Part shown: one piece after another, positions 1,303 to 49,766 of the stretch | Layout: each line of letters begins with the position of its first letter | Numbering within the stretch: position 1 is the stretch's first letter | Assembly: GCF_011305995.1 (NCBI RefSeq) | Contig: NZ_CP049910.1 | Location: 3,720,001 to 3,784,000, forward strand | Direction of reading: 5' to 3' | From: Diaphorobacter sp. HDW4A | GTDB lineage: Bacteria > Pseudomonadota > Gammaproteobacteria > Burkholderiales > Burkholderiaceae_C | DNA length: 64,000 bases | Notes under the pieces: model-generated | Databases searched by the model: none | What the model saw: the letters and a program-made list of their open reading frames with translations, nothing else | What the model was told of the DNA's origin: nothing | Position numbers and translations under genes: made by a program

Positions 1303-1518
1303 GAATTTCCTGTTGCCAAACTTCAAAACTGCAGCGATCAGACCATACGAGCGCCACTCATGACCACGAAGTTTTCAAACTAAGAAACCACGTTTTCCGA
1401 ATATGCAGGAACACGGACATGCAGATCACGCAGCGCATAAGCAAGCGCACTTTTCTTTGTTCACGCCCGCAGCATCGCTGCCTATCGTGGCGGCATGACC
1501 AAAGGACTGCACCACACC

Positions 1519-2508
1519 ATGAAGCCTCTTCGTTTTCGCATAGCCGCCGTCGCAATCGCCGCTGCACTGCCCTTGCTGGCGACCTTGCCCGCCTATGCAG
1601 AGAACTGGCCTTCGCGCCCCGTGAAGCTGGTGGTTCCGTTCCCGCCGGGCGGCGCGGCGGATGCCATCGGCCGCTACTACGCCGACAAGCTGACCCGCGC
1701 GCTGGGCCAGCCGGTGATCGTCGACAACAAGGCCGGCGCAGGCACCGCCATCGCCGCCGAATACGTGGCGCGCGCTGCACCCGACGGCTACACCATCTCG
1801 CTTGCCACCAGCGGCCAACTCACCGTGCTGCCGCATCTGCAAAGCAATCTGCGGTTTGATCCGGTGAAGGATTTCACGCCGGTCTCGCTCGTCGCCTCGG
1901 TGCACAACGTCGTCGCGATCAACCCCAAGCTGCAGATCCATTCATTGCCCGAACTGCTGGCACGCGCCAAGGCCAATCCCGGCAAGGTGACTTATTCCTC
2001 GTGCGGCAGCGGCACGCTCTGCCACCTCACCGGTGAACTGCTGCAGAACCTCTCGGGCAGCGAGCTACTGCATGTGCCGTACAAAGGCAGCGCCCCCGCC
2101 GTCACCGCAGCGCTCGGCGGCGAGGTCGACCTCGCCATCGACACCCTCACCGTGCTCGCCCCGCAGATCAAGACCGGTAAGCTGCAAGGCCTGGTGCAGA
2201 CAGCAGCCACCCGCTCGCCCCAACTGCCCGACGTGCCAAGCGCGCCAGAAGCCGGTCTGCCCAGCTTCATCAGCTCAGGCTGGTTCGGCGTAGTCGTTCC
2301 CGCCAACACGCCCGCCCCCATCGTCGCGCGCCTGCAGAAAGAACTCCACACTATCGCCCGCGCACCACAAACCGATCACGACTTGCAGGAGCGCGGCATC
2401 AGCGTGGAATACAACAGCCCGGCAGAGTTTGCATCGCTGATCAGGACCGATTACTCAAGATGGGGAAAGGTAGTGCAAGCAAGCAAGATCCAGCTTGCAG
2501 CGCAATAG
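1519..2508 (+). CDS. Bug-family tripartite tricarboxylate transporter substrate-binding protein
   Basis: This is a periplasmic solute receptor of the Bug/TctC family, which is strongly expanded in Burkholderiales. The start at 1519 gives a typical signal peptide (about 27 residues ending AYA); an upstream in-frame ATG at 1495 would add eight residues before it. The mature part shows family hallmarks: WPSRPVKLVVPFPPGG near the N-terminus, the VIVDNKAGAG segment, and VPYKGSAPAVTAALGGEVD in the second lobe. The length (329 aa) is normal. No TctA or TctB membrane subunit is adjacent, as is usual for orphan Bug receptors. The ligand, probably a carboxylate, cannot be deduced. Confidence 0.85.
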   Translation: MKPLRFRIAAVAIAAALPLLATLPAYAENWPSRPVKLVVPFPPGGAADAIGRYYADKLTRALGQPVIVDNKAGAGTAIAAEYVARAAPDGYTISLATSGQLTVLPHLQSNLRFDPVKDFTPVSLVASVHNVVAINPKLQIHSLPELLARAKANPGKVTYSSCGSGTLCHLTGELLQNLSGSELLHVPYKGSAPAVTAALGGEVDLAIDTLTVLAPQIKTGKLQGLVQTAATRSPQLPDVPSAPEAGLPSFISSGWFGVVVPANTPAPIVARLQKELHTIARAPQTDHDLQERGISVEYNSPAEFASLIRTDYSRWGKVVQASKIQLAAQ

Positions 2509-2533: not shown

Positions 2534-2567
2534 GAGGCCCGCTGTTGCCTTCAAAACAGCGGGCCTC
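2534..2567. terminator. Hairpin terminator after the Bug gene / downstream of serA
   Basis: A perfect 13-bp inverted repeat (GAGGCCCGCTGTT at 2534-2546, AACAGCGGGCCTC at 2555-2567) lies 25 bp past the Bug stop codon. A run of A on the plus strand at 2526-2530 gives a T-tract only for minus-strand transcripts, so it suits transcripts arriving from serA best. It may also slow plus-strand transcription. Confidence 0.6.
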
Positions 2568-2601
2568 CGAAGCACACAAGCCTCAGGATCTCCCACCCCA
2601 A

Positions 2602-2732
2602 CGCAGAGATGGGGCTTGAGACGAGGCGTCGCCGACGCAGACAATACTTCGGTATGGCAAGGAGGCGCAACGAAGGATCAAGCCCCATATCTGCGCCCCC
2701 GCACGACTAACCATCGAAGCCGCAAGGCTTCG
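2602..2732 (+). ncRNA. Candidate structured RNA or structured repeat, copy A
   Basis: The stretch folds into a defined shape. P1 pairs 2602-2607 with 2690-2695 and 2609-2619 with 2678-2688, interrupted by one conserved G/A mismatch (17 bp in all). P2 pairs 2630-2633 with 2664-2667. P3 is ATAC-TTCG-GTAT at 2644-2655. A separate 3' hairpin, P4, is CGAAGCC-GCAA-GGCTTCG at 2715-2732. A second copy at 25452-25583 has the same shape with compensatory changes. A UUCG loop and a GNRA loop occur only when the plus strand is read, so plus is the likely sense strand. It sits between two convergent genes. I do not recognise it as a named RNA class. Confidence 0.6.
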
Positions 2733-2745
2733 TAAAACCAACAGA

Positions 2746-3978
2746 CTAAAACAGCACGCGAGAACGAATCGTCCCCGGCACCTTGGCCAACTTCTCCAAG
2801 GCCAGATCGGAGGACTTGGCGTCAAGATCGATGACTACATAGCCAAGCGTCTCATTGGTCTGCAAAAACTGCGCAGAAATGTTGATGTGGTTTTCCGCAA
2901 GAATCTGATTGATCTGCGAAAGCACCCCCGGCACATTTTTGTGAATGTGCAGCAGCCGATGCTTGCCCGGGTGTGCTGGCAGCGCCACTTCAGGAAAATT
3001 CACCGACGAGGTGGTCGTTCCGTTGTCGCTGAACTTCACCAGCTTTTCCGCCACTTCGAGCCCGATATTGGCCTGCGCCTCCATGGTCGAGCCGCCGATG
3101 TGCGGCGTGAGAATGATGTTGTCCAGCCCCCGCAGTGGCGACTCGAAGATGTCGGCATTCGAACGCGGCTCGACGGGAAACACATCCACCGCCGCGCCCG
3201 CGAGCTGGCCTGACTTCAGCGCTGCGGCCAGCGGGTCGATTTCGACCACGGTACCGCGTGATGCGTTGATCAGAATCGCGCCGGGCTTCATCTTCGCGAT
3301 CTGCTCCGCGCCGATCATCCACTGCGTGGACGGCAGCTCGGGCACGTGCAGGGTCACCACATCGCTCTGCGCCAGCAATTCGTTGAGCGACACCTGGTGC
3401 GCATTGCCCAGCGGCAGCTTGCTGACCACGTCGTGAAAGATCACCTTCATGCCCAGCGATTCGGCCAGCACCGACAACTGCGTGCCAATGGAGCCATAAC
3501 CCACAATGCCCAGCGTCTTGCCGCGTGCCTCATACGACTGCTCGGCGCTCTTGCTCCAGCCCCCACGGTGCACCGCCGCGTTTTTGGCGGGAATGCCGCG
3601 CAGCAACAGCACGGTTTCAGCCAGCACCAGCTCGGCCACAGATCGCGTATTGGAATAAGGGGCATTGAAAGCGACCACGCCATGCTCGCGCGCAGCCTGC
3701 AGATCGATCTGGTTGGTGCCGATGCAGAAAGCCCCCACGGCCACCAGCTTGTGCGCATGCGCAAACACATCGGCCGTGAGTTGGGTGCGCGAGCGGATGC
3801 CGAGAAAGTGCACATCCGCAATGCGCTGCTTGAGTTCCTCGTCGGACAGCGCGCCCTTCACCGTCTCGATCTGGGTGTAGCCGGAGCCGTGCAGCACCTC
3901 CAGCGCGCTGGGGTGAACCCCCTCCAGCAACAGGAATTTGATCTTGCTTTTGTCCAGCGAAGTCGTCTTGGCGTTCAT
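2746..3978 (-). CDS. serA: D-3-phosphoglycerate dehydrogenase
   Basis: SerA oxidises 3-phosphoglycerate to 3-phosphohydroxypyruvate, the first step of serine synthesis, in the cytoplasm. At 410 aa it matches the E. coli-type short enzyme with one C-terminal ACT domain. The NAD-binding loop is GYGSIG (residues 160-165); the catalytic residues fall at Arg241 (NASRG), Glu270 (PVEP) and His293 (TPHIGG). The ACT domain (about 340-410, starting HRLLHIHKNVPGVL) is where serine feedback inhibition acts in this type. The ATG at 3978 has a good ribosome site (AGGGGA, about 6 bp upstream) and fits family length; the open frame extends further but without homology. Confidence 0.95.
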   Translation of the reverse strand: MNAKTTSLDKSKIKFLLLEGVHPSALEVLHGSGYTQIETVKGALSDEELKQRIADVHFLGIRSRTQLTADVFAHAHKLVAVGAFCIGTNQIDLQAAREHGVVAFNAPYSNTRSVAELVLAETVLLLRGIPAKNAAVHRGGWSKSAEQSYEARGKTLGIVGYGSIGTQLSVLAESLGMKVIFHDVVSKLPLGNAHQVSLNELLAQSDVVTLHVPELPSTQWMIGAEQIAKMKPGAILINASRGTVVEIDPLAAALKSGQLAGAAVDVFPVEPRSNADIFESPLRGLDNIILTPHIGGSTMEAQANIGLEVAEKLVKFSDNGTTTSSVNFPEVALPAHPGKHRLLHIHKNVPGVLSQINQILAENHINISAQFLQTNETLGYVVIDLDAKSSDLALEKLAKVPGTIRSRVLF

Positions 3979-24180: not shown

Positions 24181-25927
<1,747 letters not shown>

Positions 25928-48201: not shown

Positions 48202-48230
48202 TGCACCCCTCGATGCCCCCCGAAAGAAGT

Positions 48231-48285
48231 TGCCAGCCCAGCCTGTCAGGGAAACAGGTTTTCGGGGATCAGCCTAGGGCTGGCA
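48231..48285. repeat. Nested inverted repeats between integrase and the next gene
   Basis: TGCCAGCCC (48231-48239) pairs with GGGCTGGCA (48277-48285). Inside it, CCTGT (48242-48246) pairs with ACAGG (48254-48258). It begins 30 bp past the 47566-48201 gene start and ends 6 bp before the integrase stop codon. It may be a terminator or a replication/regulatory hairpin. Confidence 0.5.
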
Positions 48286-48290
48286 GAAAC

Positions 48291-49526
48291 TCATGCTAAC
48301 TGAATGTTGGCAATGCCACTGACAGCCAGCACATCAACCTGATCGGCCCACCACTGCGCCAGCTCCCGGCGCTGCTGCAAATACATGGCCTTGTTGTAGA
48401 CGCCCTCCACGCCCTTGACCTTATGAGCGAGCGCGGCGTCGATGATCCGATGGTCCTTGCCCGCCTCGTTCGCTGCCGTGCTGAAAAGGTGCCTCATGCC
48501 GTGGGGAGTCTGCTTGCTCTTGTATCCCATGCGGTCGAGCGCCTGATTGAACGTCATATTGCTGATCGGTTCGTTCTTGCGAGTGTTGCGACCGGGAAAA
48601 AGCCAGTCGCTACGGTCGCGGTACTTCTCCAGCTCCTGCAAGAGCTTCACGGTCTGGTCGGCCAGCGGGACAACGAAATCCCGACGCTCCTTCTTGCGGC
48701 TCTCAGGGATCGTCCACAGCCCCGCCTTGAGGTCGAATTCGCTCCATGTGGCGCTGCGCAGCTCGGTCGGGCGCACGGCCAGCAGCATCAGCAGTTGCAG
48801 GCCGATGGCGATGGGGCGCGATGGGTAGGCGCGCATGGCCCGGATCAGCTCGGGAATCTCAGCCGGGGATACATGCGCGAAGTTCTCGTTCTCGCTGGAC
48901 TCCAGAAACTTGTGCAGATTGTTGATGGGGTTGTACTGGGTGCGGTCAGTCACTTGAGCCAGAGCGTAGATGTCTTGGCAGTAGGAGCGGGCTTTGGTGA
49001 GCGTTTCCAGCAAGCCCTTTTCCTCCAGCCCCTTGAACAGGTTGAACCACTCGCTGGCAAGAATGGTGCGATAGGGGCGGTTGCCCATCTTGGGGGTGAT
49101 GTGGATTTCCAGCATCCGCTTGGCGCGGTCATAGGTGCCTTCCGTCCAGTCCTTGCGCTTGATTTCCAGCCACTCGGCCATGAGCGCGGAGAACGGCTCC
49201 TGCAAGAGTTTGTCAGGGGCCTGCTTGGAGTTCAGCTCAGATAGCGGGATACCCCTGTCCTTGGCTTCCTTGGCCCGCTTGACGGCTTCCTCACGCGCCT
49301 CCTGCCCTCCTAGCTGGTGAGCGCCCTTGCCGTAGGGGCCTAAGCCCATCCACGTCCATTTCCCGTCTGGCTTCTTGTACCGAAGCTGCCAGTCCTTCAT
49401 GCCGTTCTCTTTCACCCGGAGATACACACCGTCAGCGTGAAGCTCCCGGTACATCGAGCTTTCAGGCTCCAGCGCCTCTATGGTCGTGTCTGACAGCGGC
49501 CTTTTCTTGATGTCCTTGCGCTTCAT
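48291..49526 (-). CDS. int: Tyrosine integrase (P4/DUF4102 type)
   Basis: A 411-aa site-specific recombinase. An N-terminal DUF4102 arm-binding domain (about 1-95, GVYLRVKENGMKDWQLRY and GLGPYGKGAH) is followed by a core-binding SAM-like domain (about 110-200) and a catalytic domain with Arg (AVRPTELRSATW), HGMRHLFST and the final tyrosine (VYNKAMYLQQRRE). It is adjacent to tRNA-Thr, as expected for this class. GGATACA repeats lie just upstream of the start at 49526. Confidence 0.92.
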   Translation of the reverse strand: MKRKDIKKRPLSDTTIEALEPESSMYRELHADGVYLRVKENGMKDWQLRYKKPDGKWTWMGLGPYGKGAHQLGGQEAREEAVKRAKEAKDRGIPLSELNSKQAPDKLLQEPFSALMAEWLEIKRKDWTEGTYDRAKRMLEIHITPKMGNRPYRTILASEWFNLFKGLEEKGLLETLTKARSYCQDIYALAQVTDRTQYNPINNLHKFLESSENENFAHVSPAEIPELIRAMRAYPSRPIAIGLQLLMLLAVRPTELRSATWSEFDLKAGLWTIPESRKKERRDFVVPLADQTVKLLQELEKYRDRSDWLFPGRNTRKNEPISNMTFNQALDRMGYKSKQTPHGMRHLFSTAANEAGKDHRIIDAALAHKVKGVEGVYNKAMYLQQRRELAQWWADQVDVLAVSGIANIQLA

Positions 49527-49531
49527 TCCGT

Positions 49532-49584
49532 GTATCCCTATTCGAATTTGAACCAAGGATACAAGGATGGATACAGGGATACAA
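49532..49584. repeat. Right integrase-arm-like repeats (GGATACA)
   Basis: GGATACAA occurs at 49557-49564 and 49577-49584, GGATACA at 49569-49575, and the inverted copy TGTATCC at 49532-49538. The first two direct copies are 12 bp apart, as at the left end. They overlap the presumed int promoter, which would link DNA binding to int repression. Confidence 0.6.
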
Positions 49585-49652
49585 GCGGTGTATGGGTTTA
49601 TGCGTGGGCTTGCAGAGGCATGGAATCAGAGGTAAATCCTTGATCCACAAAG

Positions 49653-49682
49653 AAAAAACCCCCATGCGTGAGCATGAGGGTT
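49653..49682 (-). terminator. tRNA-Thr terminator supplied by the element
   Basis: An imperfect stem (AACCC with GGGTT, then CATGC with GCATG) is followed by T residues on the minus strand. It lies just inside the element, right after the tRNA 3' end, and mimics the dciA terminator on the other side. Confidence 0.6.
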
Positions 49683-49690
49683 CTTTGTAC

Positions 49691-49708
49691 TGGTGCCGGT
49701 TGTCGGAA
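49691..49708 (-). repeat. Right attachment site (attR-like) inside tRNA-Thr
   Basis: TGGTGCCGGTTGTCGGAA is the complement of the tRNA-Thr 3' end. It is repeated, minus one base, at 39877-39893. The integrase-proximal copy keeps the tRNA intact, so insertion does not inactivate it. Confidence 0.65.
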
Positions 49709-49766
49709 TCGAACTGACGACCTACCGCTTACAAGGCGGGTGCTCTACCAACTGAGCTAAACCGGC
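49691..49766 (-). tRNA. tRNA-Thr (anticodon TGT)
   Basis: Read on the minus strand, GCCGGTT pairs with AACCGGC in the acceptor stem; the D-arm is GCTCAGTTGGTAGAGC; the anticodon loop CTTGTAA has anticodon TGT (49733-49731); and the T-loop is TTCGATT. CCA is encoded at 49693-49691. It reads ACA. Its 3' end serves as the integration target. Confidence 0.95.

Follow-up and report, generated by a model that had tools for sequence, protein, structure and literature searches.

BOX elements have long been in use for strain typing, and their boxA subsequence is reportedly conserved in diverse bacteria. The BOX elements of S. pneumoniae and S. mitis (boxA-boxB-boxC) are short, dispersed, intergenic, tightly folded and multicopy. 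The part of the published account drawn on here describes the pneumococcal element as dispersed and folded, with terminal inverted repeats (TIR) and a target duplication, probably parasitic and apparently dormant now, and gives 125 copies in S. pneumoniae ATCC 700669 (PMC3049150). RepSU1 of S. suis, which carries BOX-type modules in another streptococcus, is described in the same part of that account, and the present repeat is likened to it by description (PMC3049150). MITEs, or IS-derived miniatures such as Correia elements and RUP, are likewise non-autonomous, intergenic and folded, and relatives of the present family share their TIR and target duplication; unlike Correia elements and RUP, the present family has a recognisable internal fold, differing termini and a replication-strand bias. 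REP and REPIN sequences, moved by RAYT (Y1) transposases, may work alike, folding specific to one strand and steps on single strands at the fork being plausible; unlike REP and REPIN, relatives of the present repeat show a T-N-A duplication. We know of no Y1 enzyme that makes T-N-A duplications.

The window (the whole stretch of DNA analysed, 64,000 nucleotides) holds two copies, A and B, of a repeat that has two sets of BOX traits: it is a many-copy, dispersed, short intergenic repeat, and it has the boxC/boxA core in sequence and fold, the core being that of BOX read in reverse (boxC', hairpin, boxA'). Unlike BOX, the window's copies have a GC-rich P1 stem, a single short P3 hairpin where BOX has boxB arrays, a 5' extension and, on the 3' side, an extra hairpin and an A-rich tail; no TIR was seen at their outer ends. 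P3 appears to occupy the position of boxB in pneumococcal BOX; a variable number of boxB modules was not seen in 28 copies from the window's own genome, which have one short hairpin at that place, apart from one copy with a 7-nt insert there. We speak of a BOX-like variant because boxB arrays were not found and terminal repeats are not readable in the window's type. Our reading, to which we give a probability of roughly 0.64, is that copy A belongs to a dispersed mobile repeat, non-autonomous and with a BOX-type core, of which the folded strand is read by a trans-acting enzyme and the insertion is biased by the replication fork.

Copy A is flanked by a TctC-type receptor gene (1495-2508, plus strand) and a 2-hydroxyacid dehydrogenase gene (2746-3978, minus strand), both assigned by Pfam, with 13 nt from its 3' hairpin to the dehydrogenase stop codon; copy B lies upstream of, and antisense to, an OBG-type GTPase gene (GTP1/OBG, 24181-25239, minus strand; Pfam). 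For the extent of copy A, given in the preliminary description as 2602-2732, the location stands and the limits do not: conservation overshoots both ends, with about 45 nt conserved upstream and about 20 nt of A-rich sequence downstream of the 3' hairpin (95 full-length copies, two genomes).

Table 1. Parts of repeat copies A and B, in window coordinates.
Feature	Position	Strand	Basis
Copy A, BOX-like repeat core (model R1 positions 1-140)	2596..2734	+	150.6 bits, E 6.6e-27; training copy
Copy A, 5' extension (AACAGCGGGCC..CGAAGC..), approximate boundary	2548..2595	+	conservation, 95 full-length copies, two genomes
Copy A, P1 5' arm	2602..2622 (2602-2607, 2609-2619, 2621-2622)	+	covariation over 28 copies; letters checked
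Copy A, P1 3' arm	2675..2695 (2675-2676, 2678-2688, 2690-2695)	+	covariation over 28 copies; letters checked
Copy A, P2 5' arm, partner 2661-2667	2630..2636	+	both-side changes in 5/7 pairs
Copy A, P2 3' arm	2661..2667	+	covariation over 28 copies
Copy A, inner loop: GCAGACA / P3 hairpin 2644-2655, TTCG loop / GGCAA	2637..2660	+	conserved columns, 28 copies
Copy A, 3' hairpin CGAAGCC-GCAA-GGCTTCG	2715..2732	+	covariation over 28 copies; loop survey
Copy A, A-rich tail, approximate boundary	2733..2755	+	column conservation
Copy B, 5' extension, approximate boundary	25400..25445	+	column conservation
Copy B, modelled core	25446..25585	+	168.2 bits, E 1.9e-30; training copy
Copy B, A-rich tail, approximate boundary	25586..25606	+	column conservation

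On the plus strand the repeat folds into an imperfect long stem P1, an outer internal loop (AGGCG/CAAC-ACG), a stem P2, an inner loop (GCAGACA/GGCAA) and the P3 hairpin; in the window's genus the extra hairpin and the A-rich tail lie 3' of this shared fold. The folding z of copy A is -5.4 on the plus strand vs. -1.0 on the minus strand. P1 of copy A pairs 2602-2607 with 2690-2695 and 2609-2619 with 2678-2688, and P2 of copy A contains a tandem G/A mismatch where copy B is Watson-Crick. That copies A and B have one fold in common, with paired changes, was borne out: the stem pairs that differ are all still paired, and the outer arms of P1 are, as described, CGCAGA/TCTGCG in A vs. TGCCAA/TTGGCA in B. 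The covariance model R1 was built from 28 own-genome copies, three deviant rows (L007, L009 and L011) having been dropped from 31 aligned rows. Over the 28 copies and 37 pairs, 93.4% of cells are paired, and changes on both sides occur at 25 of the 37 pairs, including 13 of the 19 pairs of P1; shuffled controls gave means of 78.7% paired cells and 14.2 pairs with both-side changes, and slid partners gave 30-38% paired cells. Both-side-changed cells numbered 129, vs. a shuffled mean of 37, a count reached by 0 of 500 shuffles. The results show that the fold is common to the family and that its stems covary.

The unpaired words, held to be conserved on the strength of two copies, recur in many copies and not in all: exact counts in 83 own-genome copies are 52 for GCAGACA, 55 for GGCAAGG (69 for the shorter GGCAAG), 49 for ACGAC, 48 for AGGCGT and 45 for CGCAAC. 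For the 3' hairpin, conservation of the hairpin holds, and a GNRA cap is not general (28 of 85 hairpins); the 85, each with 5 bp or more, come from 125 copies in two genomes, and 41 of them have a four-base loop, of which 28 are GNRA and none is the GNRA complement.

Copies A and B, the two first described, are two of many. R1 (E up to 0.01) finds about 87 copies on the genome's own 6.48-Mb main contig (88 rows, one antisense of another), so that further copies with covariation do exist; a plain DNA search of the same genome scored 40 places, which rules out an isolated structured RNA gene. Congeners hold 100 copies on one chromosome and 33 in another genome. Across the order the core is present, patchily, in 30 of 150 genomes and 27 of 92 genera (E up to 1e-8), in a survey with stricter scoring and a cap per genome, in which copy numbers are lower bounds. 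Few copies lie off the main chromosome: of 101 copies in G005, 1 is on its second contig (about 0.75 Mb; Poisson p 7e-5). With copy B as the lone query, no phage record matched, and 5 of 72,556 plasmid records did, two of these being N. gonorrhoeae chromosomes. Each of the two N. gonorrhoeae chromosome records has one copy-B-like stretch, with 35% of the query at 84% identity. In Janthinobacterium sp. 344, locus L381 (G070:C22 197925-198685) has four core copies in tandem, about 220 bases apart.

At the gathering score, Rfam gave no match at A, at B or at the elements in 13 loci; at a permissive threshold around A it gave six matches, all sub-gathering and all in the upstream hairpin region or earlier, one of which reaches 2633. 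A search with the inner-loop pattern in one genome per species returned at least 118 stretches, mostly from Betaproteobacteria, with others from Streptococcus, Clostridia and a Desulfobulbus MAG; single matches mean little, because about 7 are expected by chance (rough arithmetic). Model R2 was built from 85 of the listed pattern loci (nearly all Betaproteobacteria) together with A and B, the Streptococcus, clostridial and Desulfobulbus loci being left out, and it weighs the inner loop heavily because its loci were fetched by the inner-loop pattern. In alignment A5 (85 inner-loop-pattern loci, among the matches listed, with A and B) 84.4% of cells are paired and both-side changes occur at 19 of 21 pairs; the search pattern itself restricts the four P3 pairs, and P1 and P2 are free of it, P1 having both-side changes at 9 of 9 pairs and 86.5% of cells paired (again with loci among the matches listed). 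At E up to 0.01, four Streptococcus genomes have 116, 96, 28 and 12 R2 matches, the counts of 28 and 12 coming from the genomes that carry BOX primer sites. The same search gave 78 places in the Desulfobulbus MAG, 73 in a Burkholderiales MAG, 71 in Glaciimonas, 49 in Janthinobacterium, 16 in Acidovorax kalamii and 14 in Herbaspirillum, with 14 weak places in an Oscillospiraceae MAG and a single one in a Clostridiaceae MAG; these counts are no measure of prevalence, because the 12 genomes were picked for holding a pattern match.

The link to BOX itself runs through streptococcal BOX loci, two of which, both fetched by the core pattern, R2 scores at 1.1e-16 (L158) and 1.3e-14 (L145). L158, from Streptococcus sp. 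SPS1, contains a BOXA1R primer site (20 of 22 letters) and all 24 of 24 letters of what we take to be the BOXC1 primer sequence; the window copies match BOXA1R in part. The preliminary description could place the element in no known class; the core now stands with BOX elements, and the repeat is in part an already named one, a BOX-like one. A check free of the pattern comes from 18 R1 matches outside the genus: nine have GCAGACA and GGCAAG in order, with at most one mismatch each, and 15 of the 18 have the outer-loop words AGGCG and CAAC (judged by eye). Several of these matches (L068, L073, L076, L078 and L081) carry an inner loop GCAGCC/GGCGAG on a like fold, and G018, a genome with that inner loop, has 24 R1 matches, so that this type is perhaps a second large branch. 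Because of the 18 pattern-free matches, we regard the outer loop and the fold as the wider trait and the inner loop as the mark of a branch; the apparent invariance of the inner loop across genera is partly due to the pattern search for that loop. We conclude that the family spans Betaproteobacteria to Streptococcus and a Desulfobulbus MAG, with a core usable as a search model. In three clostridial MAG loci (L129, L134 and L179) the GCAGACA/GGCAA hairpin tops another stem and the outer loop is missing; these may be chance matches or a distant branch.

Sites differ among genomes in whether they hold a copy. A 0.4-Mb stretch with 10 own copies was compared across the window's genome, G004 and G005. 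Three of the 10 sites, copy A's included, are empty in G005; at three others, copy B's included, each of the three genomes has a copy; for two more, G004 has a copy and the G005 stretch nothing that corresponds; at one, a 5' remnant alone is left in G004, so that the copy there is broken, not absent; and one gave no judgement. Two of the three sites empty in G005 are filled in G004, and at the third the G004 copy lies beside a rearrangement. Copy B is broken in G001, and in G002 only its 3' hairpin is left. Absence may also be loss, because there is no outgroup, and from the empty sites no clean target duplication was readable in the window's genus. Mobility of the family is nearly established, and its present activity must be low. 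At one site, an own copy (C1:3567071) lies between two genes where G005 has a terminator-like hairpin instead.

In relatives a target site can be read. T-N-A flanks the arms on both sides, with TIR, in 27 of the 118 listed loci, with the same N on both sides in 20 of the 27 (permutation mean 9.6) and with TCA and TTA the commonest forms on the plus strand; the scoring avoids the outermost arms, which absorb T-N-A and yield no duplication. At 18 of the 27 loci the duplicated site coincides with a stop codon: among 21 cases in which the 3' T-N-A could be the stop codon of the right-hand gene, 18 have a frame of 60 codons or more that terminates right there, vs. 67 of 390 controls (TCA/TTA sites elsewhere within 400 nt), and of three possible stop-codon cases in the opposite orientation 0 reached 60 codons. 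On the enzyme involved, on which form of the strand is active and on the order of steps, we infer the following. A trans-acting enzyme would recognise the plus strand, folded and single-stranded, either in the course of replication or in transcript form, and would insert copies with a strand preference at the replication fork; in relatives, insertion would duplicate T-N-A, mostly TCA or TTA on the plus strand. Gene ends would be where such inserts survive, inserts there being tolerated because a duplicated stop codon leaves the gene intact, and the copies, we propose, would decay almost neutrally after insertion.

The chief rival to this reading, possible and yet on balance unlikely, is an ordinary MITE, in which a resident DDE transposase acts via the terminal inverted repeats and the core is a passenger. 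The TIR with T-N-A on both sides are what a MITE would show, and the part of the BOX account drawn on here reports a proposed likeness of the pneumococcal TIR to ISSpn2 (PMC3049150); against this, the TIR differ among genera while the core fold stays recognisable (in loci, it is true, chosen by their inner loop), and in the window's genus no inverted repeat is seen at the outer ends, which differ from those of the T-N-A relatives. Nor did an exact TIR pattern, in three genomes other than the window's own, find an end pair about 1 kb apart that would frame a partner transposase, and this exact-pattern IS search found no mobilising enzyme. The MITE reading gives no account of why the fold is kept or why there is a strand bias. 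A composite transposon was also considered and set aside: in three stretches, copies about 1-2 kb from one another have ordinary-looking ORFs between them.

The enzyme proposed above would read one strand, and mismatches in the P1 arms indicate which. Wobble-neutral, ungapped alignment of 81 loci, mostly of other genera (81 of the 85 pattern loci, among the matches listed, were usable for this count, a few being from Diaphorobacter), gave 114 G.T vs. 25 A.C mismatches, and the consensuses of 25 clusters gave 28 vs. 3; the Streptococcus/Desulfobulbus set by itself gave 11 and 7. An earlier cross-genus count (255:226) used loose gapped arms that run into the flanks and is not relied on. Because G.T exceeds A.C in other genera, the plus strand folds under selection there, which weakens a reading at the level of DNA alone, drawn from the equality of G.T and A.C in the window's own genus (64 vs. 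74 of 4387 cells; no excess). Selection on RNA or single-stranded DNA structure, as first suggested, is upheld as far as a folded single strand goes, and not for RNA specifically: single-stranded DNA could give the same asymmetry, and the own genus is without it.

That the active form is RNA, with selection on a plus-strand transcript that is perhaps what moves or what recruits the mobilising protein, we consider a tentative proposal and rather unlikely. The G.T excess just described speaks for it, as do the GNRA loops (28 of 41 four-base loops, with none its complement) and an unpaired position pair adjoining P1, which is a pyrimidine with C or a purine with A in 72 of 87 sequences, not independent given their kinship. 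G.T is, however, the better tolerated mismatch in folded DNA too, and the own genus has neither an excess of G.T nor any G.U in its main-cluster consensus (111 of 125 copies), which is Watson-Crick at 37 of 37 pairs. Folding z is lower for the plus strand in 20 of 22 and 16 of 22 sampled copies with RNA parameters, but DNA parameters favour the plus strand as well (19 of 22 and 17 of 22 sampled copies; in the full sets, 107 of 125 own-genus and 103 of 113 other copies), and raw RNA energy favours it in only 15 of 125 own-genus copies, vs. 83 of 113 others. A bias tied to the replication fork, moreover, fits a DNA step.

The window's genus shows such a bias. Copies switch strand near dnaA (4.99 Mb) and near its antipode, and the GC skew of the fetched loci flips there too. 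Taking the origin at dnaA, the plus strand is the lagging-strand sequence for 164 of 220 copies counted over three genomes of the genus (67 of 87, 73 of 100 and 24 of 33, a length of 5.2 Mb having been used for the third genome in place of 5.17), with a p of 2e-13 that is optimistic, the counts not being independent because genomes of the genus share some inserts. Polaromonas sp. P2-4 has a weak bias (33 of 50 lagging, weak matches included), and Janthinobacterium sp. LM6 has none (23 of 43). Gene context was assessed for 125 copies (83 own and 42 of the congener G005) with a crude codon-usage gene caller, and gave lagging:leading ratios of 27:11 between tandem genes on the lagging strand, 35:9 between tandem genes on the leading strand, 27:12 between convergent genes and 3:1 between divergent genes. 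The bias is not a by-product of gene direction, because the ratios are similar whichever strand the tandem neighbours use. In the titles and abstract openings of papers listed from an open-access library, neither a BOX-like family in Betaproteobacteria nor its replication-strand bias is described; the bias is new here, and lagging-strand placement hints at how such repeats spread.

The bias could also arise from loss, if the stabler plus strand were deleted when it lies on the lagging-strand template. This putative route we think doubtful, although the plus strand folds better as DNA and the copies that are kept mostly carry the minus strand on the lagging template. Replication-strand placement and T-N-A duplication at stop codons are two clues to how BOX moves, and both make the question testable. 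Taken further, and as speculation that we would not press, BOX may be one visible branch of a cross-phylum mobile class defined, in place of its ends, by a folded internal core that some factor reads on one strand, with insertion tied to the fork and aimed at T-Y-A, exactly onto stop codons, so that genes stay intact; if true, this would be a transposition mode of its own.

The covariation could be mutational, imperfect palindromes being perfected by template switching in replication with no selection on a fold. In the own genus, numerous C-G to G-C exchanges without wobble intermediates, along with the equality of G.T and A.C, are what template switching would give; it leaves unexplained the G.T excess in other genera, the correlated unpaired bases (72 of 87) and the AGGCG and CAAC words in 15 of the 18 R1 matches outside the genus, and we judge it improbable. 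The inner-loop invariance in A5 is no argument against it, the loci having been fetched by that pattern.

None of the 125 copies lies inside a called gene; between tandem genes 36 are sense and 46 antisense, 39 lie between convergent and 4 between divergent genes, and for the 36 tandem sense copies the next called gene is a median of 23.5 nt away. That the element is a regulatory RNA acting in cis (a leader, riboswitch or antiterminator) and retained for what it does to adjacent genes is very improbable because of this orientation to genes, in which the constant sense orientation expected of such an RNA is not found, and because site A is empty in a congener and the three flanking genes (TctC receptor, 2-hydroxyacid dehydrogenase and OBG GTPase) are unrelated, even though the tandem sense copies stand close to the next gene, G.T exceeds A.C in other genera, and pneumococcal boxA and boxC are reported, in the part of the account drawn on here, to be able to raise expression of a downstream gene (PMC3049150). 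Elsewhere in the window, at 48218-49766, an int-alpA RNA (48218-48284), a phage-type integrase gene (48291-49556) and a tRNA (49694-49766), all on the minus strand, lie side by side and perhaps mark the edge of an integrated element.
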